Source of the DNA: Desulfuromonas sp. SDB
GTDB taxonomy: Bacteria > SDB-A
Assembly (NCBI GenBank): GCA_001412365.1
Contig: LKUE01000250.1
Coordinates: 1 to 17,384 of the forward strand
Reading direction: 5' to 3'
Length of the DNA: 17,384 nucleotides
Shown one piece after another: positions 1-16,638 of this stretch (the first letter of the stretch is position 1; every line of letters starts with the position of its first letter). The notes beneath the pieces are model-generated. The model was not told the DNA's origin, made no database searches, and saw only the letters and a program-made list of their open reading frames with translations. A program made the position numbers and the translations under genes.

Positions 1-1
1 A

Positions 2-259
2 AAAAATCCTCCCATATTGATTTTTGATGAAGCCACTTCATCTTTAGATAATGAATCCGAAGGAAAGATTCAACAGGCGATGTTCAAGTTAAGCGAAAAC
101 CGCACCACCATAATTATTGCTCACCGGTTAAGCACGGTAAAAAATGTGGATAGAATTTATGTGCTTAAGAAGGGGAAAGTGGTGGAAACTGGAAAACATC
201 AGCAACTTTTAACCAGCCGGGGATATTATTTTAGCTTGTATTCAAAAAATTTAATTTGA
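2..259 (+). CDS. ABC exporter ATP-binding protein, C-terminal end (5' partial)
   Basis: This is the last 85 codons of a gene that begins before the window; the frame is open from base 2. The translation opens with [19 protein letters not shown], which is a Walker B motif (hydrophobic stretch plus DE) followed by the D-loop SSLD. About 30 residues later comes the H-loop in IIAHRLSTV. This order and the wording DEATSSLD / AHRLST are typical of the nucleotide-binding domain of fused MsbA/LmrA-type exporters, where the membrane domain precedes the ATPase on one chain. It would use ATP hydrolysis to export a lipid, peptide or drug across the inner membrane. The substrate cannot be inferred because the membrane part is outside the window. 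Stop TGA is at 257-259. No hairpin terminator follows, so transcription may continue towards ltaE. Confidence 0.9.
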
Positions 260-307
260 CCTTTTTGTCATTAATTTTCTGTACTGGCTTATTTATCTAC
301 ATTGTAA

Positions 308-313
308 TATAAT
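308..313 (+). promoter_or_regulatory. candidate -10 box upstream of ltaE
   Basis: The 86-base gap between the ABC gene and ltaE holds a perfect TATAAT at 308-313, about 33 bases before the ATG. No good -35 hexamer lies 16-18 bases upstream (TGGCTT at 285-290 is the best fit and is poor). TTGTCA at 265-270 is a better -35 match, but its spaced -10 partner would be weak. The call is therefore only a candidate. Confidence 0.25.
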
Positions 314-345
314 AAAAATGTAATATTTTTTCATTTTAGTAAATT

Positions 346-1395
346 ATGAAAATAATTGATCTTAGAAGTGATACTGTAACCCATCCCACCTCCTCAATGT
401 ATCAGGCTATGCAGCAGGCAGAATTGGGAGATGATGTTTTTGGAGATGATCCCACTACCATTAAACTGGAAAATCTAGCAGCGGAAATAACCGCAAAAGA
501 AAATGGACTACTGGTCCCTAGCGGAACTATGGGTAATTTGATAGCTAATCTTACCCACTGCAGTAAGGGAAACGAAGTATTATTAGGTGACCGGAGTCAT
601 ATTTTTCTTTATGAAGTCGGGGGGATATCTGCCCTGGGGGGATTGTTCCCTCATGTTTTACCCACATTACAAGACGGCACTATGGACCTAAACCATGTTG
701 AGGAGAGTATTAGAACTGAAAATATTCACTTTCCCCGTACTGGTTTAATTTGTTTGGAAAACACTCATAATTATTGCGGGGGATTGCCTGTTTCTACCGA
801 TTATACTGAACAGTTATGTGAATTAGCCCATCGAGTTGGATTAAAAGTTCATCTGGACGGAGCTAGAATTTTCAATGCTTCCATAGCTTTAAATGTTTCA
901 GTGAGAGAATTATGTAAATCGGTGGATTCAGTAATGTTTTGTCTGTCTAAAGGTTTAAGTGCCCCCATAGGGTCGGTTCTCTGCGGCAGCACTCAGTTTA
1001 TTGAAGCAGCTAGAAAAAACAGAAAAATGTTGGGAGGGGGGATGAGACAAACCGGCTTGATTGCAGCTGCAGGTATAGTTGCCCTAAACGAAATGAGATC
1101 GAGGTTAATTGAAGATCACCAACATGCTAAAATGATTGCAGATAGCTTGGCTGAGTTTAACCTGGTAAAAATAAACCGGGAGTCTGTGCAAACAAATATA
1201 ATTTATTTTAACCTCAATGCCGAATTAATCGAACCGGATAAGGTTATAGAAGCATTTTATCAGAGAAATATAAGATTTCTGTATTTAGGGAAATCAAAGT
1301 ACCGCATGGTCACTCACCAGGATATCAGTAAAGAAGATGTCCTCAAGGTTGTTGCAGCGGTTAAGGAAATTTTGTCCGGTTTAACTGAACAATGA
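346..1395 (+). CDS. ltaE: low-specificity L-threonine aldolase (PLP-dependent)
   Basis: A cytoplasmic fold-type I PLP enzyme that splits L-threonine or L-allo-threonine into glycine and acetaldehyde. The 349-residue length is normal for the family. Visible hallmarks are the N-terminal DLRSDTVT (5-12), the phosphate-binding SGTMGN (59-64), the DRSHIF motif whose His85 stacks on the cofactor ring, HLDGAR (169-174) with Asp171 for the pyridine nitrogen, and SKGLSAPIGS (201-210) with Lys202 as the Schiff-base lysine. All expected cofactor residues are present, so the enzyme should be active. The ATG at 346 gives the standard family N-terminus, but there is no clear Shine-Dalgarno sequence before it. 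Its TGA stop overlaps the ATG of the following histidine kinase (ATGA, 1392-1395), so the two are probably translationally coupled. Confidence 0.95.
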   Translation: MKIIDLRSDTVTHPTSSMYQAMQQAELGDDVFGDDPTTIKLENLAAEITAKENGLLVPSGTMGNLIANLTHCSKGNEVLLGDRSHIFLYEVGGISALGGLFPHVLPTLQDGTMDLNHVEESIRTENIHFPRTGLICLENTHNYCGGLPVSTDYTEQLCELAHRVGLKVHLDGARIFNASIALNVSVRELCKSVDSVMFCLSKGLSAPIGSVLCGSTQFIEAARKNRKMLGGGMRQTGLIAAAGIVALNEMRSRLIEDHQHAKMIADSLAEFNLVKINRESVQTNIIYFNLNAELIEPDKVIEAFYQRNIRFLYLGKSKYRMVTHQDISKEDVLKVVAAVKEILSGLTEQ

Positions 1396-4181
1396 AAAAA
1401 TGTTTGAATATTTTAGTTTTTACCAACTCTGAACAAAGATTTAAAGTCATTGTAGATAATCTTCAGCAACTTCCCCACAAGTTTAGAACTGAATTAATTA
1501 ACAATTCAGATAATCATAATGTAGAGTTTCTAGAAAAATTTGATTTAATGCTGGTGGACCGGCAGTTATTTTTAAAAGACATAAATTCTGTTGTAACCAA
1601 TATTAATTATAACTGTATAAATAAACCTTTAATTATCTTTGAAATAACTGAGTCAAACTGTATAAAGGCAAAGGTTATAAGCTCTAAATATCTGGATTTA
1701 ATGAGTTTGCAGGATTATCTTCTTTTTGATCAGGTTATGGTTAAAGCGGTGGAGGAAGAGGAGCAGGAGTTTTTTTTGAACTCTGAAAAAGAGCTTAAAC
1801 GGGAAAAAGAAAAATTTCAGGATCTTTTCGAGAACGCTAATGACATAATTTGGACTTCGGATTTAAATGGGCATTATCTTTCAGTCAACAGACAGTTTTT
1901 AAATATTCTGGGATATCCTAAACAACAATTAATTGGAGCTCAATCTTTAAAATTAATTGCTCCGGAAGATAGAGAATTATCTAAGCAGTACTACCACCGG
2001 GTAGTTGAAGGGCAGCAGGTTGAATATGAATGTTCAGTGTTGACCAAAAACAATACCAGAAAGATATTATGGTTGAAGCTACGCCCCATATTACAAAATT
2101 CCTCAGTGAGTGCAATTCATGGCATGGGGAGGGATATTACTGAAAGAAGAAGAATTCAAGAAGCTCAAAATTTACTTTACCGAATATCCAGTAAAGTACT
2201 GTCAATAAATGATATCCGTACTTTAATTACTCAGATAAAAGAGGAATTATCCCTGGTTATGAGCACTAAGAATTTTTTTATTGCTCTTTATAATCACCAT
2301 CAAGATCAGATAAGCTTAACCTATATTTCAGATGAACATGATGATATTGAAACTTTTCCCGCGGGAAAGACTTTAACTGCTTATGTGATAAGAAATGAAC
2401 GGTCATTATTGGTGAACCGGGACCAAATACACGCACTGGAAAATCAGAATGTTATTAGTACAATTGGAACCCCCTGTAAAGTATGGTTAGGTGTACCTTT
2501 AAAATCCAGAAGCGAGGTGGTGGGGGCAGTGGTAGTTCAAAGTTATGATGATGAAAATGCATATACGGAAAGAGAAAAAAAATTATTGGAATTCATTTCA
2601 GATCAGCTGGGATTGGCTTTGGATAGAACCAAATATCAGCAGCAATTGGAAAAAAGTGAACAACAGTACCGTGAATTAGTAGAAAACCTCCAGGAAGGAT
2701 TGGTGATTGCGGATATTGATGATAATATTGTATTTTGTAATCCAGCTTTCGCTGGAATTATTGGTTATTACAGAGAAGAATTATTGGGCAAGAATATCAG
2801 AGATTTAATTCCGCCATCAGAGTATGAAAAAATTGAAAAAGGTAATGAGGAAAGGAGAAAGGGCATAACCAGTAAATATGAAATAACGGTGGTGGACAAG
2901 CAAAACCAACTCAAGCACATCTTGCTTTATGCTTCTCCCTGGTATGATCATGAGGGCAACTACAATGGATCCCTGGGATTGCAGCTGGATATCACCGAAC
3001 AGAAAATTATGGAAAAAGAGAAGATTAAACTTCAGGAGCAGCTTCTCCAGGTGCAGAAAATGGAGGCGATTGGAACCCTGGCGGGAGGTATTGCCCATGA
3101 TTTCAATAATATTCTCACGGTGATAAAAGGTTATACCGAAACCATGATGCAGGAATGTGAACAGGACAGCGTTGCCTACCATGATCTTGAAGAAATATTT
3201 AAAGCTTCGGAAAGAGCAGCTAGTCTCACTAAAAAATTATTACTGTTCAGTAAAAAACAGGTTAAATCTTTTCGGCAGTTAAATCTCAATGATCTGATAG
3301 AACGTTCCTTAACCATGATAAAGAGGATGATTGGCGAAGATATCCGAATTCATACTGATTTAAAGCAGAATCTGGGGTTTATCCATGCAGACCCCTCAAA
3401 TCTGGAACAGGTATTATTCAATCTCTGTATCAATGCAAGAGATGCTATGCCCGAAGGAGGTGAAATTAAAATCACTACTTCCAGTATTGAGGTGATGAAT
3501 TATCAAGATAAAAAAAACCATAAAACTACTCCTGGTAATTATGTTCTTCTAACTGTGGAGGACAATGGAAGCGGCATAAACAGCAAGGTGATACCGCATA
3601 TATTTGAACCTTTCTTCACCACCAAAAAAATTGATAAGGGAACGGGACTGGGGTTGGCAGTAGTTTATGGCATCGTTAAGCAGCATCAGGGATGGATTGA
3701 GGTGGATAGCAAACCTGGACAGGGCAGTAAATTTATGATTTATCTGCCTTTATCCGACCGAAAAAAAATTAAGCAGGTTGATATACAGAAGCAGTCAGAA
3801 ATTGTACCAGGCAATCAGGAGAATATTTTATTAGTTGAAGATTCAGAGGGACTGAGAGAATTTTTAATTAAATTCCTGACTAAAAATAATTATAAAATTA
3901 CCTCTGCTGAAAATGCAGCCAAAGCCCTTTCCATAATTCAACATCAACCGGAATCTTTTGATTTAATGCTGACAGATGTAATACTTCCTGACCGCAACGG
4001 AGTAAAACTTGCTGAAGAGGTAATTGGTATCTGTCCTCATATTAAGATTATATTCAGCAGTGGCTATACCGGGGAAAAATCATCTTTGGATAAAATCAAT
4101 GAATTAAATTATCCTTTTATCAGAAAGCCCTATAAAACTGCTGATTTATTGCAATTGATCAGTAAAGTTCTGAACAATTAA
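1392..4181 (+). CDS. hybrid sensor histidine kinase (PAS-GAF-PAS-HisKA-HATPase-REC), soluble
   Basis: A 929-residue two-component hybrid kinase. Reading in order: a receiver-like N-terminal segment (about 5-125) with Asp56 in the phosphoacceptor position but no acidic pair; PAS (about 142-256); GAF (about 260-413); PAS (about 424-540); HisKA with phosphoacceptor His569 in GGIAHDFNN; HATPase with N-box Asn681 ([10 protein letters not shown]), G1 DNGSGI (724-729) and G2 GTGLGL (750-755); and a C-terminal receiver with Glu816/Asp817, phosphoacceptor Asp862 (LTDVILP) and Lys912 (RKP). The catalytic residues look complete. No signal peptide or membrane segment is present, so sensing is cytoplasmic, through a ligand or redox state at PAS/GAF. 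No response-regulator gene with an output domain lies nearby, so the phosphate probably passes to an orphan partner. The ATG overlaps the ltaE stop. Its stop TAA overlaps the stop of the convergent sugar transferase. Confidence 0.95.
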
Positions 4182-4855
4182 TGATCTTGGTTATCATCAA
4201 TGTATTTCTTTTGAAATTGAATCCGGTCTTCACTGCCCTGAGGGTCTAAGTCCAAAGGCACTGAATTCAATGCCGTTATTAAGGTGGATAAAATAATCTT
4301 TATATTGAAGGTCAAAGATTGGTGTTGAATGTAATATCGGTCAAACTTAAATTGTAATTTTTTAGTTAATTTGCCGGTTCTAATCAACTTGAGTTGAGCT
4401 AAACCGGTCCATCCTGGTCTTACTGAAGTACGGTAGTTAAACATAAACACCGGCTGCAGCTGAAGGGGGAGAGGTCGGGGACCTACAAAACTCATTTTAC
4501 CCATAAAAATCAACAGCAGTTCAGGTAATTCGTCAATATGACAATTTCTTAAGAATTTACCCAGTTTGGACAGGCGTTCTGTCTCAAAAAAAATTCTCCC
4601 GGTTGTTTTCCCTGGTCTCATGCTTTTAAATTTTAAATGATAATATTTTTGATTATTTTTTCCAACTCTTTCCGATATGTACAGGGGAGGAAAACCGAGA
4701 TCAATGGAGACGATTACAGCTACCAGTATAATCAATGGAGATGTAATAATCAACAATATTGCTGAAAAAATGAGATCAAATATCCTTATCTTCCAACAGC
4801 TTTTAGTTTTGTAATAATCTGATGTTTTCAGTGACATTTTGTTTGAAAAGTTCAC
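4178..4855 (-). CDS. bacterial sugar transferase (polyprenyl-phosphate sugar-1-phosphate transferase family)
   Basis: Member of the bacterial sugar-transferase family (WcaJ/PglC-like catalytic domain). These enzymes move a sugar-1-phosphate from a UDP-sugar onto undecaprenyl phosphate at the inner face of the inner membrane, the first membrane step in surface-glycan assembly. Visible features are a basic stretch followed by a hydrophobic re-entrant helix (IFDLIFSAILLIITSPLIIL), then the conserved LKFKSMRPG, LGKFLRNCHIDELPELL and MSFVGPRPLP blocks and PGWTGLAQL. The short length (225 residues) means only the catalytic module, without the N-terminal membrane bundle of WcaJ-type proteins. The GTG at 4855 lies 53 bases inside murD; an ATG at 4837 is an alternative start. 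Neither has a clear ribosome site, which fits coupling to murD translation. The stop shares bases with the stop of the convergent kinase. Confidence 0.9.
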   Translation of the reverse strand: MNFSNKMSLKTSDYYKTKSCWKIRIFDLIFSAILLIITSPLIILVAVIVSIDLGFPPLYISERVGKNNQKYYHLKFKSMRPGKTTGRIFFETERLSKLGKFLRNCHIDELPELLLIFMGKMSFVGPRPLPLQLQPVFMFNYRTSVRPGWTGLAQLKLIRTGKLTKKLQFKFDRYYIQHQSLTFNIKIILSTLITALNSVPLDLDPQGSEDRIQFQKKYIDDNQDH

Positions 4856-6221
4856 CTCGTTGGAATAAATCCCGGAAAAATGGAGAACCGCTGCATCCCG
4901 GGGATAGCAATAAAGTTCCCCTTTTCTGTTTGTTTAATCTGCTCATCCCTTCCCCCACTGCTTGTTCCATATCATCCACTTCAATCAATTTTAAATGACT
5001 GTAGTTTTGTTGGTTTTTTATTATAGGGGATGTTTGATCCTGATTGAATAATATTAAAACGGCTACAGATTTTTCAATTTCCCGGGATAATTTTCTATAA
5101 TCAAGGTTTTTATGCCCTCCCCCTCCCGCAATAAGAATTAAGGGCCATTGATTCACTGCTTTTATTGCCGCCAGGGTTGAATCCGGAGTTGTAGCTGCTG
5201 AATCGTTGATAATTGAAAAGTTATCAGAACAGTACAGAGTTTCAAATCGGTGAGGTAACCCTTTGAATTTCGTCAATGCCCTGGTGATTTTTTCCGGAGG
5301 CACTCCGGCTAGATATGAACAGGCTATGGCAGCTAAAGTTAATTTGAGGTAATGAGGAGTTTTTAGATAGGGGGGGAGATATTTACAATTCAACAAATTA
5401 AATTGTCGCCCCTGTTCATTAATTTCAATTCGGGATTGGTTAATCCATACCCCCTCAATAAAATTATTTGGTTTAGAATTAGTGTCGAAATAAAATGTTC
5501 TGGCGTTACTGTTTAGATGTTTGAATGTTTGGTCGGACCAGGGTAATATAAGGCAATCTTTGTTGTTTTGATGCTTACTTATCTGCATTTTGTCTTCCCA
5601 GTACTGATCTAAATCCGCATAGTAATTTTGGTGATCGGGGAAAAAGTTCAGCCAGCAGGCCAGGTTAGGTGAACGATGGTGCAGTCCCATTTCCTTTAGT
5701 TGCCATGAAGATAATTCAAGAATTATTTTTTTAGTGGTTTCCATGAATCTCAATGGAGAGCGGCAGTTATTTCCTGCCGCCACCGCAGGTATATCTGAGT
5801 GGAGGAGAATATGTTCAACCAAATGGGTGGTTAAACTCTTTCCTTTAGTTCCGGTTATGCCCACAAAGGGTTTTTTGTAAAGTGCACAGAAAATGCCTAG
5901 GGGGCTTTCAATCGTTGCCCCTGATGACTGGGCGATTTTAAGCAGAGGATGACTTCGCTTAATTCCTGGATTTCTAATTACTATATCCGCAACAATAAAA
6001 TCTTCAACCAGATGTCCTCCCAAATGATAAGATATTTTAAAATTTTTTAGCTTTTCTATTGATGACTGCAGTGCTGGTTTATCCTGCAGATCGGTAATGG
6101 TGATTTCGCAGTGATGTTGATGACAGAAAACAGCAGCGCCTACCCCTCCATCTTTAGTTCCCAAACCCATGATCAGTACCTTTTTATGCTGAAGTTGTTT
6201 TAAATTGGTTAGCAATTTCAT
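4803..6221 (-). CDS. murD: UDP-N-acetylmuramoylalanine--D-glutamate ligase (MurD type)
   Basis: A 472-residue Mur ligase that in the canonical pathway adds D-Glu to UDP-MurNAc-L-Ala in the cytoplasm. Domain 1: a Rossmann-like glycine stretch MGLGTKDGGVGAA (18-30) and IRNPGI (82-87). Domain 2: P-loop GITGTKGKS (121-129), ELSSWQL (169-175), the FPDH region (194-197) and Lys211 in the usual place of the carbamylated lysine. Domain 3: HRFE (324-327), NDSAATTPDST (339-349), LIAGGGGHKNLDY (363-375) and LLLSPGCSGSPFF (437-449). The length and block order fit MurD better than MurC, E or F. The P-loop reads TKGKS rather than the common TNGKT/SNGKS, and the first loop is extended by a GG insertion. Canonical MurD is the likeliest role, but it sits outside a division/cell-wall cluster, between radical SAM genes and a sugar transferase. 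A ligase with another amino acid or acceptor is possible. Confidence 0.88.
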   Translation of the reverse strand: MKLLTNLKQLQHKKVLIMGLGTKDGGVGAAVFCHQHHCEITITDLQDKPALQSSIEKLKNFKISYHLGGHLVEDFIVADIVIRNPGIKRSHPLLKIAQSSGATIESPLGIFCALYKKPFVGITGTKGKSLTTHLVEHILLHSDIPAVAAGNNCRSPLRFMETTKKIILELSSWQLKEMGLHHRSPNLACWLNFFPDHQNYYADLDQYWEDKMQISKHQNNKDCLILPWSDQTFKHLNSNARTFYFDTNSKPNNFIEGVWINQSRIEINEQGRQFNLLNCKYLPPYLKTPHYLKLTLAAIACSYLAGVPPEKITRALTKFKGLPHRFETLYCSDNFSIINDSAATTPDSTLAAIKAVNQWPLILIAGGGGHKNLDYRKLSREIEKSVAVLILFNQDQTSPIIKNQQNYSHLKLIEVDDMEQAVGEGMSRLNKQKRGTLLLSPGCSGSPFFRDLFQRGELFKQNVTENIRLLQN

Positions 6222-6230
6222 TTTTAAAGT

Positions 6231-7214
6231 TCAGTCAACTACGCCAAATAAAATTCTGTCCAGTTCATTAATTTTCAGATAGTAAGGATAATGCTTTTCA
6301 TATAATTCAAATAGCTTTTCCCCCAGCCAGAGATTATCTGGTGAATAACAGTGGGGTTGGATATCTGTAAAATTATCAGCACGTTTAAAATCTAACCGGT
6401 GGGTGGAGATAGACTTAAAAACATCAGTTCCTACAAAACGTTGGCAGGGGTATACTCGTGCTTGGCTAGTAATAACTGCAGTTGTCTTCCCCGCCTGACA
6501 CTTCAGCTCCGGGATCTGGTTTCCCAGCAATAGTCTATGATGACCGGAGACCCTGATATTGAATTGGCTGGCTAGCTTATATATGCGGGTCAAAAAATTA
6601 AATTTAGTATTTCTGCTCAGGGAATCAGTTGAATCCTGCCTTAGAGATATGGAAATATCTCCGGTGCGCAGTTCAGATTTTAGGTAATAAAAGAATTCAT
6701 CAATATAATCGCAGGTTTGTTGGTCTATTACACTGTTTATATAAACAGGATATTGCTGATGCTGTAATAAGTTAAATGCCTGGATGGTTTTTTCAAAACT
6801 GTTCTGCCCATTCACTAAGGGTCTTCTGATATTATGTATTTTTTCAATACTGTCCACCGATAGTACATGAACTAGAGAAGATTTAAATTTACCATTGAAT
6901 CTGGATAGGTTCTGTTCATTGATTAAAGTTCCATTGGTATTGATAACTACCAGCCCTTGGGGAAATTGGGACAGGAAATAATTAGATAAATCTTCAACCA
7001 GCGGACTGGTCAGGTATGGCTCTCCTCCGGTAAATCTTAATTGAAATTTTTCCGGGTAAGGAAGATAACCGGCACTGTATTTTTTATATTTATCAATAAT
7101 TTGACAGTAATCTTGTTCAGTTAGAATTGAATTATATTTCTTATCCGGTATGTAACAGTAAGTACATCTGCAGTTACAGTTTAAGGTGGGCATAAAGTAT
7201 AGGCATTTGAGCAT
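6231..7214 (-). CDS. radical SAM protein with short SPASM/twitch-like C-terminus
   Basis: A 327-residue radical SAM enzyme. The [4Fe-4S]-binding CX3CX2C motif is Cys13/Cys17/Cys20 (LNCNCRCTYCY). The SAM-binding RFTGGEP motif is at 60-66, VINTNGTL at 90-97, and a strand reading VLSVDS at 117-122. The C-terminal third carries Cys239 (ELKCQAG), Cys257 (VYPCQRF) and Cys289. Their spacing resembles a reduced SPASM or twitch auxiliary-cluster domain, but fewer cysteines are present than in a full SPASM. Enzymes of this type modify peptides or small molecules; the substrate is not readable here and no precursor peptide gene is seen. The ATG at 7214 directly follows the TAA of the upstream radical SAM gene (TAAATG). 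murD begins nine bases after this stop, so the three are surely co-transcribed. Confidence 0.82.
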   Translation of the reverse strand: MLKCLYFMPTLNCNCRCTYCYIPDKKYNSILTEQDYCQIIDKYKKYSAGYLPYPEKFQLRFTGGEPYLTSPLVEDLSNYFLSQFPQGLVVINTNGTLINEQNLSRFNGKFKSSLVHVLSVDSIEKIHNIRRPLVNGQNSFEKTIQAFNLLQHQQYPVYINSVIDQQTCDYIDEFFYYLKSELRTGDISISLRQDSTDSLSRNTKFNFLTRIYKLASQFNIRVSGHHRLLLGNQIPELKCQAGKTTAVITSQARVYPCQRFVGTDVFKSISTHRLDFKRADNFTDIQPHCYSPDNLWLGEKLFELYEKHYPYYLKINELDRILFGVVD

Positions 7215-8033
7215 TTAAAACCCGCCCCGGCAGTCATATTTGGTTAGTTTGATGGGAAAACTTGCCCTACAGAAAGAAATTGGTATATTTTGGACGGTGA
7301 ACAATTGTTTCATCCAATTAAATAATTTTATTCGGTATTCCAGCTGGGGGTGCTGGGGTCGGTGGTTAAGGGGGGGGTAGTAGCTGATGAATTTTTTATA
7401 CTGCACTGAACTCAGATGTAACTTGATGTTTTCGGCAATTTTTTTATTTATTCTCACCGTTTCCGTAGTCACTGCAAATGGTTTTACTTTGATAATCGAA
7501 TTTATCAATGCTTCCATTAATATCCCATCGGTAATGCCTGGAATAACCGGATCAATTTTAACAACAGTTTTTACCTGATCGTTTATAAGATCCGCCACTA
7601 AATTTAAACGTTGTTCAGCAGTGGGCAATTTTGGTTCTGTGCAATCGAGAACAGACTGATCTAAACTGTTCAATGATACTGCAACAAAACAGCGGGGATT
7701 GTTCCGGAAAAATTCAACATCCCTTGCCACCAGGCAACTTTTGGTTACTACAAAATATTTCCGGTTCAGCATAAATAGTTTAGATAAGGCGTGTCTGGTT
7801 AACTTACAATTTTTTTCCAATTCCTGGTAAGGATCAGTCCAGGGGGACAGGTAAAAGGGGATATCGGACTGGTCACTGCGTTTTATTTCCTGGTCTAATT
7901 CTGCAGTTGAGTAAATTGCAGTGGAATTTGATTCATGTCTGTTCTGAGCAATACAATAAATACAGTTAAATGGGCAACCTGAATAAAAATCAACTTCATA
8001 ATTTTTTGGACAGGAGTGTTTGTATTTCGGCAT
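7215..8033 (-). CDS. radical SAM protein, SPL/COG1533-like
   Basis: A 272-residue radical SAM protein with the cluster motif Cys20/Cys24/Cys27 in YSGCPFNCIYCIAQ. Further matches to the COG1533 'spore photoproduct lyase-like' group are SPWTDPYQELE followed by LTRHAL, YFVVTKS, AVSLNSLD, and VVKIDPVIPGITD (a DPxIPGxxD motif). True SplB repairs spore photoproduct, but most COG1533 members are uncharacterised; here there are no sporulation genes, so DNA repair is not claimed. It is the first gene of the minus-strand operon. The ATG at 8033 is preceded by a weak GGGA ribosome site about seven bases upstream. Its TAA abuts the ATG of the second radical SAM gene. The coding strand contains a run of eight C residues (plus-strand G8 at 7370-7377), in frame in this sequence. 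Confidence 0.8.
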   Translation of the reverse strand: MPKYKHSCPKNYEVDFYSGCPFNCIYCIAQNRHESNSTAIYSTAELDQEIKRSDQSDIPFYLSPWTDPYQELEKNCKLTRHALSKLFMLNRKYFVVTKSCLVARDVEFFRNNPRCFVAVSLNSLDQSVLDCTEPKLPTAEQRLNLVADLINDQVKTVVKIDPVIPGITDGILMEALINSIIKVKPFAVTTETVRINKKIAENIKLHLSSVQYKKFISYYPPLNHRPQHPQLEYRIKLFNWMKQLFTVQNIPISFCRASFPIKLTKYDCRGGF

Positions 8034-8092
8034 ATATAAATCCCAAATTATGTTAACACAAAATTTCTGTTTATGTTTTGTAAAATTTTTAT

Positions 8093-8098
8093 TATAAT
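8093..8098 (+). promoter_or_regulatory. candidate -10 box for the DUF4126 gene
   Basis: A perfect TATAAT sits 14 bases before the preferred ATG at 8112. If used, transcription would begin at about 8105, giving a leaderless or nearly leaderless message, which would explain the missing ribosome site. No convincing -35 hexamer is seen 16-18 bases upstream, so the call is tentative. Confidence 0.25.
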
Positions 8099-8111
8099 TA
8101 CAATTATGGCT

Positions 8112-8672
8112 ATGGAAGTGATATTGAGTTTAATCTTAGGGATCAGCCTAAGTGCAGCCTGTGGTTTTAGAATTTTTGTTCCTCTGTTAATTATGAGTAT
8201 AGCCTCCCTGGCTGGTCATCTTTCCTTAAATCCGGGTTTTCAGTGGATCGGAACTTATCCTGCTTTAATTGCTTTTGCTTTGGCTACTGCTTTAGAGATA
8301 GCTGCCTATTATATTCCCTGGCTGGATAATTTACTTGACAGCATTGCTATACCTGCTTCCATAGTGGCGGGAATTATTGTTTCTGCTTCCTGTTTCAGCG
8401 GAATGAGCCCCTTCCTTAAATGGGTGCTGGTAGTGGTGGCAGGGGGTGGCTCAGCCGCTTTAGTTCAAGGATTAACTGTAGTAGCCAGAGGTATCTCCTC
8501 TCTTACTACCCGGGGGGGGACTAATGCCTACCTCTCCTCTGCAGAAGCATTGGGTTCTGCTGCTCTTTCCATTATGGCTATTGTGGTGCCGCTAATAGTT
8601 GCAGTAATTATAATATTTTTGATTTATTTCTCCATTAAGATGCTGTTATTCAAACCCCGGGTATCCAGTTAA
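8112..8672 (+). CDS. DUF4126 family membrane protein
   Basis: A small, very hydrophobic protein matching DUF4126 in layout: an N-terminal helix with SAACGFRIFVPLL, a glycine/proline-rich middle with IPWLDNLLDSIAIPASIVAG, a helix ending in AGGGSAALVQGLT, a short soluble linker (about TTRGGTNAYLSSAEAL), and a final helix. About five membrane segments are visible. The function of the family is unknown; it sits in the inner membrane. The frame is open from an ATG at 8073, but that would add a hydrophobic MFCKIFIIITI tail, and a TATAAT box lies at 8093-8098 inside it. The ATG at 8112 (or 8106) gives the usual family N-terminus (MEVILSLILG) and is preferred. No Shine-Dalgarno sequence precedes any of the three starts. 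It stands alone, divergent from the radical SAM operon. Confidence 0.8.
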   Translation: MEVILSLILGISLSAACGFRIFVPLLIMSIASLAGHLSLNPGFQWIGTYPALIAFALATALEIAAYYIPWLDNLLDSIAIPASIVAGIIVSASCFSGMSPFLKWVLVVVAGGGSAALVQGLTVVARGISSLTTRGGTNAYLSSAEALGSAALSIMAIVVPLIVAVIIIFLIYFSIKMLLFKPRVSS

Positions 8673-8731
8673 ACTTTTGTGCCCCAGAATGTTTTAAAAA
8701 GCTTATAAATGCTATTATCAGAATGTCCCTC

Positions 8732-8745
8732 AATTGTTAACAATT
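8732..8745. repeat. 14-bp perfect palindrome AATTGTTAACAATT
   Basis: Within the 163-base non-coding stretch between the DUF4126 gene and the lipoprotein gene lies a perfect palindrome without a loop, centred on GTTAAC. It is about 35 bases upstream of a TATAAT at 8780-8785. It has no T-tract, so it is not an obvious terminator, and the lack of a loop favours a protein-binding site over an RNA hairpin. In AT-rich DNA such a palindrome can also be chance. Confidence 0.3.
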
Positions 8746-8779
8746 AGAAAATTAACGATGCTTAAGTTACTCAATTATG

Positions 8780-8785
8780 TATAAT
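8780..8785 (+). promoter_or_regulatory. candidate -10 box for the lipoprotein-photolyase unit
   Basis: TATAAT preceded directly by TG, 50 bases upstream of the lipoprotein ATG. No good -35 box is at the right distance, so the promoter may be weak or activator-dependent. The rest of the gap holds nothing else recognisable apart from the palindrome at 8732-8745 and the strong ribosome site just before 8836. Confidence 0.3.
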
Positions 8786-8835
8786 AATTTTAATGAAGAT
8801 ATTCAGCCATTACTAATTCAACAGGGAGGTCGTCT

Positions 8836-9267
8836 ATGTGCAAATTGTTTCTGGGAAGCACCTTAGCGGTATTGTTGATTTCCATAACCACTGGTTGTTC
8901 TTCAGGTGTGCCTCAAAGCGAATATGATGAACTACAGCTGAAATTTGAGCAGGCAGAACAGGAAATTGAACAACTCAATCAGGAAAACCAGCAGTTGAAA
9001 CTAAACATGAGAACAGCAAAGGCAAAAGCAGATATGATCACTGGTCTTTTTGTCCCTGCGATTACCGGAGAATTGGATAATATGAGTGAATCTCAATCAG
9101 TTCAGATGTTTTTGGAATGGTCGGATAAAATTGAACAATCTGAAGATCCTGAGCTTAAGATAAAATTTCAAGAGTTAATGAATACTCAATTCAGTGATCA
9201 AGCCATGATGGATTTTTTTATTTATTTGTTTGAAAGTCTGCCTGAAGATTTAGATTATCAGGAATGA
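8836..9267 (+). CDS. small putative lipoprotein with coiled coil
   Basis: A 143-residue protein of unknown function. Residues 1-20 are a signal peptide (basic Lys3, hydrophobic core LFLGSTLAVLLISI) ending in TTGC. Cys21 would be the lipidated residue; Thr at -3 is less usual than Leu, so the lipobox is acceptable but not perfect. Residues 28-62 are a heptad-rich coiled coil (YDELQLKFEQAEQEIEQLN), followed by an acidic helical region. The mature protein would be anchored to a membrane and exposed to the periplasm. A strong ribosome site, GGGAGG, lies seven to eight bases before the ATG, which settles the start. Its stop TGA overlaps the ATG of the photolyase gene (ATGA at 9264-9267), so the two are translated from one message despite having no obvious functional link. 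Confidence 0.75.
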   Translation: MCKLFLGSTLAVLLISITTGCSSGVPQSEYDELQLKFEQAEQEIEQLNQENQQLKLNMRTAKAKADMITGLFVPAITGELDNMSESQSVQMFLEWSDKIEQSEDPELKIKFQELMNTQFSDQAMMDFFIYLFESLPEDLDYQE

Positions 9268-9686
9268 TCAATTTAATTAAATCCAGGTACAGATGCTTAA
9301 ATAAAATATCATATCAAAAAGGCAATGTTCTCTACTGGATGAGTAGAGAACAAAGGGTGGAAAACAATTGGAGTTTAGTTACCGCCCAATATTTTGCAGA
9401 TCAATATAAATCTGACTTAACTGTAATATTTTGTTTACAGGAAGATTTTCTCGGTGCTCCCTGGCGTCATTACCATTTCATGCTGGAAGGTTTAAAACAG
9501 GTAAGTGAAAAATTCAGCAGATTAAATATTAAATTTGATTTAGTAGTCGGTTATCCCCCTGAAATATTAATTGCCGAAATCAGCCGCAGAAATATTGGAC
9601 TGATCGTCACCGATTTTGATCCTTTGCCTGTCAAAAAAAAAATGGAAAGAAGATCTGTTGAATTACATCAAAATACCTTTAATTGA
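9264..9686 (+). pseudogene. phr: class II CPD photolyase, N-terminal fragment (frameshifted)
   Basis: The first 126 codons of a class II deoxyribodipyrimidine photolyase, the flavoprotein that uses light to reverse cyclobutane pyrimidine dimers. The class II start is recognisable: VLYWMSREQRVENNWSL (about 23-39), then the alpha/beta domain with FCLQEDFLGAPWRHYHFMLEGL and a strand ending DFDPLPVKKK. After the A-run at 9633-9642 the frame loses family resemblance (MERRSVELHQNTFN) and stops at 9686. The matching sequence continues in the frame of the next entry. Removing one A would give a single product of 451 residues over 9264-10620, a normal class II length. The ATG overlaps the stop of the upstream lipoprotein gene, which supports this start. 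The fragment alone lacks the FAD-binding domain and cannot be active. Confidence 0.88.
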
Positions 9687-10620
9687 AGTGGATGCCCACA
9701 ACCTAATACCCCCCTGGATATTGTCCGATCACCAGGAATACAATGCCTATTTTATAAGAAAGAAAATTGAAAAGCAGTTAGATAAATTTCTGGTGGACAT
9801 TCCCTCTGTTCATCTGAGAAAGAACAAAAAAATTAAAAACAACCTGAATGGGGATGTTCTTTACAGGGACATTAAACTGGACCGTTCGGTATCTCCGGTA
9901 GAAGATATTGTTCCTGGTTCCGATCAAGGTTTAAATCAGGCATCTTTGTTTATACATGAAAAAAAATTAAAGTACTATCAGGCTAAATCAAGGGATCCTA
10001 ATGCTCATGCCCAGTCCGGTTTGTCTCCCTATATTCACTTTGGGCAGATATCAGTACAGAAACTATTGCTGGATTTGATTAAAATATCACCTGAAGTCAG
10101 GAAAAACTGGGTTGATGAATTATTGACGAGAAGGGAGCTGGCGGAGAATTATTGTTTTTACCAGGAAAAATTCGATCAATATCAGGGATTGCCCTCCTGG
10201 TCCAGAAAAACTCTGGAAGAACATAAAGTTGATAAGAGAGCTTATATCTATTCCGTTGATCAGCTGGAAAACGGTGAGACTCATGATCAACTATGGAATG
10301 CTTCCCAGCGACATGTAGCCATGGCTGGTACCATGCCCGGCTATTTGAGGATGTACTGGGCAAAAAAAATATTGGAGTGGACTGCTGAACCCTCCCAGGC
10401 TATTGATATTGCAATATATCTAAATAATAAATACCAACTGGATGGCAGAGATCCTAATGGCTATGCGGGAATTCTTTGGAGTATAGGAGGATTGCATGAC
10501 CGTCCTTGGCCAGAGCGAAGTGTTTTCGGAAAAGTCAGATATATGAGTTTACAGGGGTGCAAAAGGAAATTCAATGTCCCTGAATATATTGAGTATGTCA
10601 ACAGTAAATATCCGGGATAG
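9616..10620 (+). pseudogene. phr: class II CPD photolyase, catalytic C-terminal fragment (frameshifted)
   Basis: The FAD-binding catalytic part of the class II photolyase begun at 9264. Genuine family sequence starts at the TGG at 9643 (residue 127 of the repaired protein): WKEDLL, then EVDAHNLIPPWI and SDHQEYNAYFIRKKI, closing the antenna domain. The helical domain carries SGLSPYIHFGQIS (His258-Gly260), the class II RRELAENYCFY block (from Arg289), WNASQRHVAMAGTMPGYLRM (from Trp344) and NNKYQLDGRDPNGYAG (from Asn387), ending with LHDRPWPERSVFGKVRYMS. All blocks appear intact, so apart from the A10 frameshift the gene shows no decay. The frame is open from a TTG at 9616, but that codon has no ribosome site and gives a non-family leader, so separate translation is unlikely. 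It converges on the GWxTD gene across a shared hairpin. Confidence 0.88.
9633..9642 (+). repeat. A10 homopolymer at the photolyase frameshift
   Basis: Ten consecutive A residues after the codons for DFDPLPV. Family alignment from memory expects a DFDPLPVKKKWKEDLL-like continuation, which needs nine A residues (Val-Lys-Lys-Lys-Trp). With ten, the Trp codon TGG is read as ATG GAA and the frame ends early. The tract could be a sequencing or assembly error, a true mutation, a phase-variable tract, or a site where RNA polymerase slippage yields some correct message. Confidence 0.85.
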
Positions 10621-10661
10621 AAAAAAAAGTAAAAGCTGAATGTGACAATTCAGCTTTTACT
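10621..10661 (-). terminator. rho-independent terminator of the GWxTD gene
   Basis: A perfect 14-bp stem, AGTAAAAGCTGAAT (10628-10641) pairing with 10648-10661, around a six-base loop GTGACA. Read on the minus strand it is followed directly by eight T residues (plus-strand A tract 10621-10628), the classic form, and it lies 27 bases after the stop of the minus-strand GWxTD gene. On the plus strand the hairpin lies just after the photolyase stop and may also slow that transcript, but no T-tract follows there. Confidence 0.85.
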
Positions 10662-10688
10662 AAAGGAACAATTTCCAATGTTTGATTT

Positions 10689-11942
10689 CTACCAAATACC
10701 ACCCAGGGAAGGATTGGTGTATTTTTCATAATTGGGATGATTTCTTTCATCAGGGTCGTTAGAGTAGATTAATTCAAATTCCCCGTGCTGATATATATCT
10801 GCAAAGATGTACTTGTATCCTGAACTCCAGTAATTCCATATTTCATTGGGAGGATACTGCGAATCTGCAGGGATTATGGTGACTTCTTCAGGTTTTCCGT
10901 TGATAATGTAGATGCGACCCCGGTCAGATTCATACCCTCTTTCAAACCCGCTGGAATATTGTTCGTCGGCATATTGAATTCTTTCAGCAAATAGCTCTAA
11001 AGCTTCGTTTTCTTCAGTTAGAGGATTTGGATCTCGGGAATTCCAGAATATTTTAGCAAAAGCCTGCTTGCCTTCATCAGAAAGAGATTCAAAGAAATTC
11101 TGCTGTTCCACATTCATTATCAGATCAATTTCCATGTAATATTTTTCAGCGATGGGAGACATAACTAATTCAGGAGGGGCAAATTCTCCTGCGGTTAAAT
11201 CCCAAAAAACCTTGAAGTTGCTTTTCTGAATTTCATCTCCAGCAGATATTATAAATTGATAATTGCCGTTTAATAATTCGCCTACCGGAAGATTTAACAA
11301 TTTTCCAATTACAATGCCTTCAGGTTGATCGCTGATTTCAGACTGGTAATTCCATATTTCAGTATTTTCTTCATCCAGAATGGCGGCATTCAGTGAAATT
11401 GTTTGACTGTCGTATTGAGGATAAACTTCATAATAAGCCAGCAATTGAGGATTATTAACTGATACATCATTTAAAAAGGCGGGATAAATTAAAAGTCCGT
11501 TCTTTACAAATTTACTGCTGTCGCTGCTCGGAGAAACGCTGGTGGTAAATAAAACATCGGAGAGAAGGGCATTGGCTTCAATAGGAGATGTGGTATAGGA
11601 AACTGATCCCTGAAGGTTAGAGGCAGGGTCAGTGATTAAAATTATTACTTCCATGGAATCAGTCAGATCAAAAGAAAATTTGTCAATTAAAGAGTAATTC
11701 TCCTCCTTGGGAGGAATTTCCATTGGCCATTTGTCGTTATATTTTTCCTCACCCCTCATATTCTCAATGATCAGATTCATTTCCAGTAAACTGAACTCCT
11801 GGTTTACGGGTATATTTATGTATACTTCATCCCAGGTGATGCCGCTACCATCAAGATATCTTGAAGATACAACGTAGAAATCTATATCACCGGTTGAGGT
11901 GAATAGATTGCTTAACAGGGTAATCATCAACAAGAACTGCAT
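10689..11942 (-). CDS. GWxTD domain-containing secreted protein
   Basis: A 417-residue exported protein. Residues 1-18 look like a short signal peptide (MQFLLMITLLSNLFTSTG). The middle is beta-rich and unassigned. The C-terminal 270-395 fits the GWxTD domain: FWNSRDPNPLTEENEALELF, ERIQYADEQYSSGF, then GYESDRGRIYIINGKPEEV, an IWNYW segment and YIFADIYQHGEFELIYS. The name-giving G-W-x-T-D reads G336-Y-E-S-D340, so Trp and Thr are conservatively replaced while the RGRIYI context is kept. The role of the domain is unknown; it is known from Acidobacteriota and FCB-group genomes. An AGGAGG-type ribosome site lies right before the ATG. A TTGATT-17-TATGAT promoter overlaps the end of tetR, so it can be transcribed separately, and a strong terminator ends it. 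Confidence 0.85.
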   Translation of the reverse strand: MQFLLMITLLSNLFTSTGDIDFYVVSSRYLDGSGITWDEVYINIPVNQEFSLLEMNLIIENMRGEEKYNDKWPMEIPPKEENYSLIDKFSFDLTDSMEVIILITDPASNLQGSVSYTTSPIEANALLSDVLFTTSVSPSSDSSKFVKNGLLIYPAFLNDVSVNNPQLLAYYEVYPQYDSQTISLNAAILDEENTEIWNYQSEISDQPEGIVIGKLLNLPVGELLNGNYQFIISAGDEIQKSNFKVFWDLTAGEFAPPELVMSPIAEKYYMEIDLIMNVEQQNFFESLSDEGKQAFAKIFWNSRDPNPLTEENEALELFAERIQYADEQYSSGFERGYESDRGRIYIINGKPEEVTIIPADSQYPPNEIWNYWSSGYKYIFADIYQHGEFELIYSNDPDERNHPNYEKYTNPSLGGIW

Positions 11943-11968
11943 ATAATCCTCCTCTAATTTAAAGTTAA

Positions 11969-11997
11969 ATCATACTAAATCTTTTAAATTTAATCAA
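11969..11997 (-). promoter_or_regulatory. promoter of the GWxTD gene
   Basis: On the minus strand, -35 TTGATT (plus 11992-11997) and -10 TATGAT (plus 11969-11974) are separated by 17 bases, giving a start about 20 bases before the GWxTD ATG. The -35 box overlaps the final codons of tetR. Four and five of six consensus bases match with ideal spacing. Confidence 0.5.
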
Positions 11998-12826
11998 TAC
12001 TGCCTGGCCAGTGGTGGTTAAGGTTGAGTAATATTGTGGAAGCAGAATAAGCTGCTTTAGAATTCAATCCCTGGGTATTTCCCAGAAAATCAGCCATTTC
12101 TTTTAACACCAGATCGAATGATTTTATGGATCCATTTTTGTCTAAACAATAACGGCAATATGTGGATTGGGGATCATTTTCAGGATAATCTTGAGGGAAA
12201 GTCATCAGCATGGAACAACTTCGGCATATTCGCTTGGTCGGAGAGGGGATATTATCTGAATTTACAAATCCGGTATTTGTGTTCAGGAGATATGATAATA
12301 CTTTTTCAATTAAATTATCAGTGAATATCTGATTTTTATAAAAATTGCTGAAAAAAAGAATATAAATCAAAGCACCCTGCCAAAGTACAGTATTTTCCAG
12401 GGGAAAGTCAGATATTTTCTGAAAAACCTGGATTAAATAATAGTTAATGGAGGTCCAAAGAGAAATAACTAAAATTTTAGTTTCTTTCTTAAAATCGGGA
12501 TAACCTTTGAGCAGTGCGGATATGGTTATAAAATGCCTGTTCATTATTGTTTTGTGATTGCTGAGTAAATCATTAATTTCATTGCATTTACGATAGTTTT
12601 CAAAGAAATCGCTGGTTAGATGATTGACTATAAATTTTACCACTTCATAAATTAATCTATCTCTTTTATAGAAATGAAAAAATAAAGTTCCGTGAGCGAT
12701 ATTTGCTTTTTGGGCGATAATTAAAGTTGAAGCGGTGAAATTAGTTTTTATTAAAATTTTGGTCGCCGTTCTTATTATTTTTTTTCGGGTTTGATCTTTG
12801 GTTATTTCTCTTTGATTATTTTTCAT
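11990..12826 (-). CDS. TetR-type transcriptional regulator fused to a C-terminal zinc ribbon
   Basis: A 278-residue protein. Residues 10-58 form a TetR N-terminal helix-turn-helix (TRKKIIRTATKILIKTNF; IAQKANIAHGTLFFHFYKRDRL). Residues 60-185 are helical and fit a TetR ligand/dimer domain. Most TetR proteins end near 190-220 residues, but here a further domain follows: CRSC (Cys201/Cys204) and CRYC (Cys224/Cys227), 19 residues between the pairs, then a helix SFDLVLKEMADFLG. This resembles the 'putative zinc ribbon' family with CxSCxMP...YCxYC, normally a stand-alone domain. The fusion could sense metal or redox state, or stabilise the protein. It has a consensus promoter with a dyad over the start point, suggesting self-repression. 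It diverges from an OsmC-family gene, the likeliest target. No ribosome site stronger than an AT-rich leader is seen. Confidence 0.85.
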   Translation of the reverse strand: MKNNQREITKDQTRKKIIRTATKILIKTNFTASTLIIAQKANIAHGTLFFHFYKRDRLIYEVVKFIVNHLTSDFFENYRKCNEINDLLSNHKTIMNRHFITISALLKGYPDFKKETKILVISLWTSINYYLIQVFQKISDFPLENTVLWQGALIYILFFSNFYKNQIFTDNLIEKVLSYLLNTNTGFVNSDNIPSPTKRICRSCSMLMTFPQDYPENDPQSTYCRYCLDKNGSIKSFDLVLKEMADFLGNTQGLNSKAAYSASTILLNLNHHWPGSID

Positions 12827-12847
12827 TTATAAATTAATTAAAAAAAT

Positions 12848-12861
12848 TGAGTGCATGCTCA
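12848..12861. promoter_or_regulatory. candidate TetR operator (TGAGTGCATGCTCA)
   Basis: An inverted repeat with perfect TGAG/CTCA arms around TGCATG. It lies over the expected transcription start of tetR (about plus 12860) and 22 bases before its ATG. Placement and size suit a TetR-family operator for self-repression; the dyad is short and imperfect at the centre, so binding is an inference. Confidence 0.45.
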
Positions 12862-12866
12862 GTGAA

Positions 12867-12896
12867 ATTATATGCAATTTAATAAGTATTTGTCAA
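12867..12896 (-). promoter_or_regulatory. consensus sigma-70-type promoter of tetR
   Basis: On the minus strand, -35 TTGACA (plus 12891-12896) and -10 TATAAT (plus 12867-12872) are both perfect, with an 18-base spacer. This is the best promoter in the window. A promoter this strong feeding a repressor, with an inverted repeat just downstream, is the normal pattern of autoregulation. Confidence 0.75.
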
Positions 12897-12916
12897 CAGC
12901 AATTGATATAAAATGT

Positions 12917-12945
12917 TTTACTTTGTTCTCTATTATTTATATTAT
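12917..12945 (+). promoter_or_regulatory. promoter of the OsmC-family gene
   Basis: TTTACT (12917-12922) and TATTAT (12940-12945) with a 17-base spacer, matching four and five of six consensus positions. The start would be near 12951, about 30 bases before the ATG at 12981. It is about 55 bases from the candidate operator, so direct repression by the TetR protein would need another site or looping. Confidence 0.4.
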
Positions 12946-12980
12946 AAAGGGATATTTATTTTCACTAAACATTAGGAGGT

Positions 12981-13388
12981 ATGATGATAGCTAAATCAAC
13001 ATGGGTAAAAAATTTTCAATCAGTTGTGGACAATGGTAGAACTCACAGCTTAGTAGTGGATTTGCCCCCTGGAAAAAACGGGGATGATTTTGGTCCCACT
13101 GCCTTAGAGTTAGCCAATATGGCTTTAGCAGGTTGTATTTCTACTATTTTTGCAGTAGTTGCAGGAAAGATGCGTCTTAATATCCAGACCCTTGAGGTAA
13201 CTGTTGATTCTTCAAAACCGGATGATGCCCCTACTATTACCAAATCAGATATCCTGCTTAAAATTAAAACATCTGACTCTGAAGACAAAGTTAATAGATG
13301 CTTTGAACAAACCATGAAAATGTGCCCGGTGGGTGTAATTTTCAGCAATGCGGGAATTGAAACTAATCACCGCATTGAATTAGTATAA
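12981..13388 (+). CDS. OsmC/YhfA-family thiol protein
   Basis: A 135-residue cytoplasmic protein of the OsmC superfamily, which includes thiol peroxidases that reduce organic hydroperoxides. Key features: PTALELANMALAGCISTIF with Cys52 at the start of the central helix, and MKMCPVG with Cys115, the second catalytic cysteine; FGPTALELANMALAGC is the typical block. The short N-terminal strand region (STWVKNFQSVVDNGRTHSLVVDLPP) fits the YhfA-type OsmC-like branch rather than Ohr. With both cysteines present, a peroxidase or thiol role is plausible. A strong ribosome site AGGAGG precedes the first ATG at 12981; a second ATG at 12984 directly follows and could also be used. It diverges from the TetR-zinc-ribbon gene, and a perfect hairpin follows its stop. 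Confidence 0.88.
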   Translation: MMIAKSTWVKNFQSVVDNGRTHSLVVDLPPGKNGDDFGPTALELANMALAGCISTIFAVVAGKMRLNIQTLEVTVDSSKPDDAPTITKSDILLKIKTSDSEDKVNRCFEQTMKMCPVGVIFSNAGIETNHRIELV

Positions 13389-13401
13389 ATAAAAAAATCA
13401 G

Positions 13402-13440
13402 GTATTTCTAAATCAGCTATATATGCTGATTTAGAAATAC
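13402..13440. terminator. perfect 16-bp hairpin after the OsmC-family gene
   Basis: GTATTTCTAAATCAGC (13402-13417) pairs perfectly with 13425-13440 around a seven-base TATATAT loop. It begins 14 bases after the osmC-like stop, so it probably ends or protects that transcript, though no T-tract follows on the plus strand. The T-rich tail is on the minus-strand side (plus-strand A run 13391-13397), where no gene would use it. It also lies 27 bases before the next start codon and could act in that gene's leader. Confidence 0.55.
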
Positions 13441-13467
13441 ATCTAAGCTTATATAGTTTTTATATTC

Positions 13468-14673
13468 ATGGATAAGCTGATCCCTGAATTCATTTTTCAG
13501 CATTACCACAATCTTGAAGTTAATGGTTCGTTTGAAGCGGTTTTTCTGTCAATTGAAATATTAGGACTCCCCTTACTGGTTGAAAAATTAGTTGCAGAAA
13601 ATTGTAAACAAACAGCCATCAATGAAATTTTAAATAAAATATTCACTCCCCTGGTTGAAATTATTGAAAATTACCGGGGAGAGATTATTGATTTCCAGGA
13701 TAACCAGCTTTTAATTATTTTTCCTAAAGATTGCATTAAGGTTTCTTCAGTAATTTCTGCTGCCCTGGAGATCAGAAATAAAATTGATGATCAGAGAACG
13801 TTCAAAACAAAATTTGGCAGTTATTATCTTGATGAAATACAAGCTATTACTTTTGGTCTAGTTAGCTGGGAATATTTTCCTGAACTCAAATTTTTTTATT
13901 ACTTGAGATCAGATGCAATAAATTACGGAAGAAAGCTGCTGAGTTTGGCTGCCAGAAGAGAAATCTTAATAGATCCAATGTACATCGAATTAATTTCCAC
14001 TAGCGGGGATCAGTTCCAATTTATTGAAAAAAGAGAATCAATTATGTCCATTTATTATGACTCCGCCCCTCCCCGGGGGAATGATGACAAACTCCCCCCG
14101 GCTGATTTGATAGTTTCCACTATATCAGAAGAAAATAAAATCAATCAGAGATATGAACACAATGAATTTAAAACATATAGCAATCCCGCAGTGAATTTAG
14201 CGGTTTGGCTTAATAATCCTCAATTACTTGGAGATGATATTACCAGAATAGTGAAATATGCTGATCATTATAAAGCGGAATTAAGCTATTTTAGATTTTT
14301 TGAACAGGGGGTCAGACTTAATTTAATGTTTAAAATAAATCCCGAAAATTTTCAATATGATTACCCTGTAAAATTTCTGGAAGATTTGAAATTTATAAAT
14401 ATGAATTTTAAAGCAGGAATAGCATTAAGTTACATAATACAATACCGGGTTCATTGCAATGGACATCAAGTAAGAACAAATTATGGTCAATGTTGCCGGT
14501 TAACTGAAAATTTTCTGGATTTGAGTTATCCGGAATTAGATTGCCATCACCACATTCTAACTGGACAAAATTATTATTTAAAGATAGAGAAAAATTACCA
14601 GTTAATAGAACTAGAACCACAGGTGATATCAGATTTTGCCAGACCTATTCAATTATATGGATTAATTCTATAA
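13468..14673 (+). CDS. tandem degenerate class III nucleotide-cyclase-like domains (likely non-catalytic)
   Basis: A 401-residue soluble protein. Residues 20-190 resemble the first cyclase homology domain of large cyclase-AAA-TPR regulators: FEAVFLSIEILGLPLLVEKL, ILNKIFTPLVEIIENYRGEIIDF, LLIIFP, AITFGLVSWEYF, YYLRSDAINYGRKLLSLA and REILIDP. Residues 238-400 repeat the pattern more weakly (NLAVWLNNPQLL, KAGIALSYIIQYRV, VRTNYGQCCRLTENFLDL, HHILTG). The two metal-binding Asp positions of the first domain appear as Glu30 and Asn79, and the second domain lacks them, so catalysis is unlikely. The AAA and TPR parts are absent. It may bind nucleotides or a partner. The assignment rests on pattern memory. 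The ATG has no clear ribosome site; a perfect hairpin lies 27 bases upstream. Confidence 0.6.
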   Translation: MDKLIPEFIFQHYHNLEVNGSFEAVFLSIEILGLPLLVEKLVAENCKQTAINEILNKIFTPLVEIIENYRGEIIDFQDNQLLIIFPKDCIKVSSVISAALEIRNKIDDQRTFKTKFGSYYLDEIQAITFGLVSWEYFPELKFFYYLRSDAINYGRKLLSLAARREILIDPMYIELISTSGDQFQFIEKRESIMSIYYDSAPPRGNDDKLPPADLIVSTISEENKINQRYEHNEFKTYSNPAVNLAVWLNNPQLLGDDITRIVKYADHYKAELSYFRFFEQGVRLNLMFKINPENFQYDYPVKFLEDLKFINMNFKAGIALSYIIQYRVHCNGHQVRTNYGQCCRLTENFLDLSYPELDCHHHILTGQNYYLKIEKNYQLIELEPQVISDFARPIQLYGLIL

Positions 14674-16631: not shown

Positions 16632-16638
16632 CTTCAAT

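Follow-up and report, generated by a model that had tools for sequence, protein, structure and literature searches.

What might an uncultured bacterium with a complete set of peptidoglycan genes do with an additional MurD-like ligase that is encoded between a pair of radical S-adenosylmethionine (SAM) enzymes and a small sugar transferase? The question is raised by contig LKUE01000250.1 of Desulfuromonas sp. SDB (GCA_001412365.1), a metagenome-assembled genome (MAG) of 3.14 Mb (98.7% complete, 3.9% contamination). We analyzed positions 1 to 17,384 of this contig, referred to below as the window, in which four open reading frames (ORFs) on the minus strand fill positions 4178-8033. Their products are, in transcription order, radical SAM proteins of 272 and 327 aa, a Mur ligase paralogous to MurD, and a phosphoglycosyl transferase similar to PglC. 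We tentatively favor the view that they form an accessory operon running a small side pathway alongside the synthesis of peptidoglycan precursors, and that this operon was probably acquired as one block. A reading that comes close behind is that four accessory genes with unrelated jobs share one transcription unit by chance, perhaps on one transferred segment.

The ligase scores 315 bits against the MurD equivalog profile TIGR01087 over residues 14-463, the curated cut-off being 212, and has the architecture expected of the family, with an N-terminal UDP-binding domain, the P-loop GTKGKS and a conserved catalytic core. The standard wall genes of this organism lie elsewhere: murE and murF on contig C42, and mraY, murD, ftsW and one more Mur ligase gene on contig C230. 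As the dcw set of this genome is complete and includes a MurD, the ligase of the window is a second one. The presence of another murD had been left as a check by the initial annotation of this DNA, and the dcw gene next to mraY and ftsW rules out that the window ligase is the only one. A recent duplication is also ruled out, since the two proteins share 26-27% identity and fall in different regions of the tree. D-Glu itself appears to be provided for by a MurI on contig C13 (244 bits); a weak second racemase match, on contig C337, was rejected as an aspartate-racemase-like gene in unrelated surroundings. A peculiarity marks the dcw MurD throughout this family (L003:1003-2376 and L086-L088, in genomes G000-G003): NNSMCTN and NPGMASFD replace the usual NDSKATN and SPACASFD, with a conserved Asp changed to Asn, and this unusual active-site variant is retained at 45-47% identity.

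We surveyed the residues of the window ligase in an alignment with 126 relatives. K128, E169, H197, Y207, K211 and T344 are identical in all of them, and N151, R325, D340 and R455 are common to 122-125. The Mur core is thus present, including the P-loop Lys (K128), the catalytic E169 and H197, the carbamoylated-Lys position (K211), R325 and D340, and so are the counterparts of Lys348 and Thr321 on the D-Glu side (K371 and T344). The N-terminal UDP-binding domain keeps all eight columns that are conserved at the 85% level. Other sites are altered. The last Asn of the HNxxN motif, found in 123 of the 126 relatives, is replaced (N294L; the ligase reads HYLKL), a residue that we take to have a role in the ATP site, and Y291 and L452 occur in none of the relatives. 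Toward the C terminus, a Ser present in every relative has become Gly (S445G), and the adjacent position, Phe or Tyr in 124 of 126, is Ser (F446S). In Escherichia coli MurD, Ser415 hydrogen-bonds D-Glu, and Ser415 and Leu416 contact D-Glu or its analogs (PMC3527612); the D-Glu-binding Ser is therefore missing from the window ligase. Amino-acid and ATP sites that have changed around a preserved UDP-sugar part would fit a non-standard substrate. As far as residues can tell, the ligase may act on the same class of acceptor with a different amine, or may have lost its activity. The ligase also shows that an annotation as MurD well above its cut-off can mask a protein that lacks the D-Glu-binding Ser.

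The AlphaFold2 model of the ligase is a good MurD fold (mean predicted local distance difference test, pLDDT, 86), with the same three domains as the E. coli and Pseudomonas aeruginosa enzymes (Z 36-37 to MurD entries, 28 to MurC); its lowest-confidence internal loop is the altered D-Glu loop, residues 446-448. Only five of the 126 relatives fit the consensus of the C-terminal domain worse. The P-loop and the ELSSWQL and DHQN motifs are as in spirochaetes, with identities of up to 36%, and the best-scoring relatives, at 35-36% identity, are stand-alone MurDs from a single phylum that group with named Spirochaetota in the tree. Named MurD loci recovered by an alignment-based scan belong mostly to Spirochaetota, Patescibacteria and Chloroflexota. 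The tip branch of the ligase is the longest in the tree (1.41, median 0.43) and is placed, without starred support, among MurDs of Patescibacteria, spirochaetes and Desulfomonile, so that no precise donor is resolved. Unlike these MurDs, the window ligase is an extra copy beside an intact dcw murD, and its neighbors are radical SAM and phosphoglycosyl transferase genes.

Reading the DNA bears out the layout first described for the four genes (Table 1), and Pfam and NCBIfam profiles agree with the families then assigned to them. The TAA of the first radical SAM gene abuts the ATG of the second (7215/7214), nine bases (6222-6230) separate the latter from the ligase gene, and the ligase and transferase genes overlap by 53 bases (4803-4855) if the transferase starts at GTG 4855, or by 35 if it starts at the in-frame ATG 4837, which would give a protein of 219 aa. 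Downstream, the unit borders on a convergent histidine kinase gene, with an overlap at 4178-4181. The intergenic gap upstream is the sole non-coding site for an operon promoter; consensus scans gave no convincing promoter or terminator, with 20 promoter-like sites compared with 13.7 (standard deviation 2.9) in shuffled sequences.

Table 1. Features of the four-gene unit and its upstream border
Feature	Positions	Strand	Remarks
Radical SAM protein, COG1533/spore-photoproduct-lyase-like, 272 aa	7215-8033	minus	first in transcription order; Pfam Radical_SAM 8.9e-9
Radical SAM protein, cut-down twitch-like C-terminal cluster domain, 327 aa	6231-7214	minus	Pfam Radical_SAM 2.2e-10
MurD paralog (Mur ligase), 472 aa	4803-6221	minus	TIGR01087 315 bits
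Small monotopic phosphoglycosyl transferase, PglC-like, 225 aa, GTG start	4178-4855	minus	Pfam Bac_transf 9e-45
39-bp gap upstream of the four-gene unit	8034-8072		separates the unit from the divergent DUF4126 gene
DUF4126 gene	8073-8672	plus	divergent neighbor of the four-gene unit

Close packing is common in this genome: by rough ORF calling on 39 other contigs, 40 of 98 same-strand neighbors lie no more than 10 bp apart, and the window also contains genes that overlap by 4 bp although they are evidently unrelated (threonine aldolase and histidine kinase at 1392-1395; lipoprotein and photolyase at 9264-9267). Better evidence of membership in one unit is the common codon atypicality of the four genes. 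All of them fall at the 7th-11th percentile of codon typicality, and six other genes of the window at the 28th-82nd; of the 73 other runs of four genes in the sampled genome, not one is atypical to this degree in all its members. Surplus AAC, CTA and GGG codons contribute most. Since this atypical usage is shared within the unit and is not found in its flanks, it suggests one accessory block of shared history, which was possibly imported. A contaminating contig is not supported by tetranucleotide composition (contig versus genome, r = 0.982; GC content 0.361), a comparison that a similarly composed contaminant could escape.

The transferase has the size and domain layout of PglC, with 225 aa, a Bac_transf domain at residues 24-196, the DE dyad in its DELP motif and no N-terminal part with multiple transmembrane segments. 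Over residues 24-206 it matches PDB entry 8e37, an N,N'-diacetylbacillosaminyl-1-phosphate transferase (1e-29), and shares with such enzymes the motif SFVGPRPL as well as DELP. It differs from them in lying outside a glycan-assembly cluster, in overlapping a Mur ligase gene, and in a RIQFQK tail that it has in common with one protein of genome G055. The other Bac_transf genes of its own genome comprise two complete long forms and a fourth match broken by a contig end, and no relatives were found in viral contigs. The G055 protein (L252:17549-18160) is the nearest relative found (43% identity), and G055, a distant genome, is the only one with such a relative among 336. There the gene stands at L252:15986-18160 in a row formed by a methyltransferase gene, a divergent glutamate-racemase-like gene, which the methyltransferase gene overlaps, and the PglC-type transferase gene. 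The racemase-like protein scores 108 bits against a MurI cut-off of 147, and retains both catalytic Cys contexts (ACN, ACTHY). In both genomes in which it was found, this transferase subfamily thus adjoins a D-Glu-related gene, MurD-like here and MurI-like in G055. Two cases make no pattern, and the second context is a single hint, independent of the first, at a link to D-Glu or wall precursors such as a side pathway would predict.

Both radical SAM proteins carry the CX3CX2C motif of the radical SAM core (C13-C17-C20 in the 327-aa protein), and neither attains the cut-off of any NCBIfam family. The 272-aa protein is closest to the PA0069 family (89 bits, cut-off 360). It shares the core motif and about 30% core identity with the COG1533, PA0069 and Rv2578c proteins, and its C terminus contains further Cys residues (FCRASF...YDCRGGF). 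Its closest genome matches are at 25-28% identity (E about 1e-20), neither a Mur ligase nor a phosphoglycosyl transferase gene adjoins those relatives whose surroundings we inspected in other genomes, and sequence comparison gave no relative in the PDB. The 327-aa protein is closest to the PapB family (74 bits, cut-off 340). Like the SPASM/twitch maturases (SCIFF 5wgg, PapB, ChlB, anSME), it has the core, the overall fold and the first Cys pair of the auxiliary region. The Cys of CQAG (239), the Cys of YPC and Cys289 are kept, but the later SPASM cysteines (CxxC/CxGGC) are absent (alignment A2), so that the SPASM set is incomplete; a further difference is that the unit contains no peptide substrate. 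Foldseek ranks a CteB-type sactipeptide maturase (5why/5wgg), ChlB and anSME as the best structural matches of its AlphaFold2 model, which has a pLDDT of 74 and is poor beyond residue 266, in the C-terminal domain.

We then asked whether the unit is found in other genomes. The nearest genomes compared, G001-G003, belong to the same family, as searches returned none of the same genus, and they are quite distant, their dcw MurDs being 45-47% identical to that of this genome. They contain no close counterpart of the ligase or of either radical SAM protein, and their Bac_transf proteins are all of the long form. This absence is weak evidence, because the genomes differ much and because the sister genus likewise has no match, at the threshold applied, for the ABC-F gene of the window. 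More broadly, no pair of neighbors recurs in the 290-386 genomes sampled or around 80 MurD loci. None of the other three genes lies within about 7 kb of MurD at any of these 80 loci (contig scan with alignment A1; the same scan with the single ligase sequence as query gave no relatives), no sampled genome has matches of the two radical SAM proteins near each other, and nothing in 386 genomes matches the 327-aa protein better than 6e-17. A plasmid collection yielded weak matches only, for all four proteins.

The pathway that we tentatively favor would begin with an ATP-dependent reaction of the ligase, in which a UDP-linked sugar acid, such as UDP-N-acetylmuramic acid (UDP-MurNAc), UDP-MurNAc-Ala or a similar compound, would receive an amine or an amino acid different from D-Glu. 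The transferase would then move the sugar phosphate to undecaprenyl phosphate, yielding a lipid-linked aminoacyl-sugar, in parallel to the action of MurD and then MraY, and one or both radical SAM enzymes would alter the amino acid or the sugar by epimerization or by C-C, C-S or dehydrogenation chemistry. The end product might be a surface glycan or a wall unit of an unusual kind. We regard it as rather unlikely that the scheme holds in its most specific form, a new side branch in which a neofunctionalized MurD places a non-Glu amine on a UDP-muramyl-type sugar, a PglC-type transferase replaces MraY, and radical SAM chemistry modifies the product. Mur-family ligases are known to serve another wall polymer in the pseudomurein of methanogens, where two of the PMur ligases are MurD-like (PMC12996149; radical SAM enzymes are not mentioned there); these ligases are, however, archaeal and encoded in a dedicated cluster, and the window ligase matches their models with only 43-59 bits. 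In the literature searched we found no description of a Mur ligase combined with a radical SAM enzyme and a PglC-type transferase. If the side pathway is real, it would bring together Mur ligases, a transferase of the PglC type and radical SAM chemistry, and a MurD-family enzyme freed from D-Glu would offer a natural test case for the evolution of specificity in Mur ligases.

Several observations weigh against a side pathway. The unit is found in one MAG only, and within its four genes there is no substrate, product, glycosyltransferase or flippase. All matches of the two radical SAM proteins are to peptide maturases or to families whose function is unknown. Close gene packing being ordinary in this genome, the junctions alone are unremarkable; low expression could mimic the codon signal, which moreover comes from a comparison of only 148 genes. 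The link in G055 stands alone, and the MurI-like gene there could be the only racemase of that genome. The initial annotation had proposed that the unit makes or modifies an unusual wall or surface-glycan precursor, and had named separation of the four genes in related genomes as grounds for abandoning this; within our sampling (G001-G003, the 290-386 genomes and the 80 MurD loci) they are indeed not neighbors. Its proposal nevertheless keeps part of its force through the second, altered MurD, the codon block and the G055 neighbor. The accompanying idea of a non-standard ligase substrate likewise survives in part, with the D-Glu and ATP sites altered and the UDP-sugar part kept, the product being conjectural. 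The lack of conserved neighbors in any sampled genome is what a chance operon would predict, as are the genome-wide packing, which joins unrelated genes in the same window, and the membership of the radical SAM proteins in two different, poorly characterized groups; with the ABC-F gene missing from the sister genus too, common absence links the four genes weakly. What speaks against chance is that the codon signature is limited to these four among the window genes tested, that the overlap of ligase and transferase genes would couple their translation, and that the transferase of G055 also neighbors a gene for a D-Glu-enzyme-like protein. Should the operon be a chance one, these would be ordinary accessory genes in a MAG. 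Loss of function in the ligase, with the operon as a remnant, seems unlikely to us. The long branch is also compatible with decay, and near-invariant residues of the ATP region (N294L) and of the substrate site (S445G, F446S) are lost, but all four ORFs are intact, every fully invariant catalytic position that we checked is kept, and the ligase model folds well.

Slightly less probable still is that the ligase is a spare or stereochemically relaxed MurD, comparable to MurD2, that still makes UDP-MurNAc-Ala-Glu, one of the radical SAM enzymes epimerizing L-Glu in place of MurL. Some SPASM-type radical SAM enzymes do epimerize peptides, the arrangement resembles that of Xanthomonas MurD2 and MurL in placing a MurD-family ligase near a candidate modifying enzyme, and the window ligase has Ala (NDSAATTP) at the position of E. 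coli K319, whose change to Thr lets E. coli MurD accept L-Glu (PMC8788868). The same Ala occurs, however, in 40 of the 126 relatives and is therefore no special sign. In Xanthomonas MurD2, Glu197 and Arg358 determine the specificity (PMC8788868), and both are absent here (the ligase has Asp196 and Lys371); the Glu-binding Ser is lost; and MurI is present, so that D-Glu needs no detour. MurL itself was not found in this genome, in a search run without a positive control, and with the missing determinants and the presence of MurI this led us to reject a MurD2/MurL pathway. In MAGs of Bacteroidota, MurL-like epimerase genes immediately precede MurDs of the GTKGKST type (L192:5617-7011, L193:5478-6854, L205:5668-6999); the epimerase genes were identified by NCBIfam NF041275 at 241-248 bits in L193 and L205 and by sequence resemblance in L192; they fall outside the taxa named in PMC8788868. 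Very improbable, finally, is a locus for a ribosomally synthesized and post-translationally modified peptide, in which the radical SAM pair would modify the peptide and the ligase and transferase would decorate or anchor it. The resemblance of the 327-aa protein to peptide maturases, in structure and profile, would suit such a role, but its SPASM domain is incomplete and no ORF fits a precursor: gaps within the unit measure 0 and 9 bp, the one upstream offers 39 bp, and the gene that follows downstream is convergent and overlapping. For want of space for a precursor-peptide gene, we set this explanation aside.

Some features outside the unit deserve a record. In the window, a photolyase-like gene on the plus strand is split into overlapping frames (9264-9686 and 9616-10620) near an A run, owing to a frameshift or an assembly error. 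The product of 11990-12826 (minus strand) looks TetR-like at its N terminus, where Pfam gives no match, and ends in a zinc ribbon (Zn_ribbon_2), and 13468-14673 (plus strand) encodes a 401-aa protein without Pfam match whose N terminus resembles, by eye, a degenerate nucleotide-cyclase domain. Elsewhere in the MAG, contig C330 (L122) has outlying tetranucleotide frequencies (r 0.889, GC content 0.315) and is possibly foreign or mobile.

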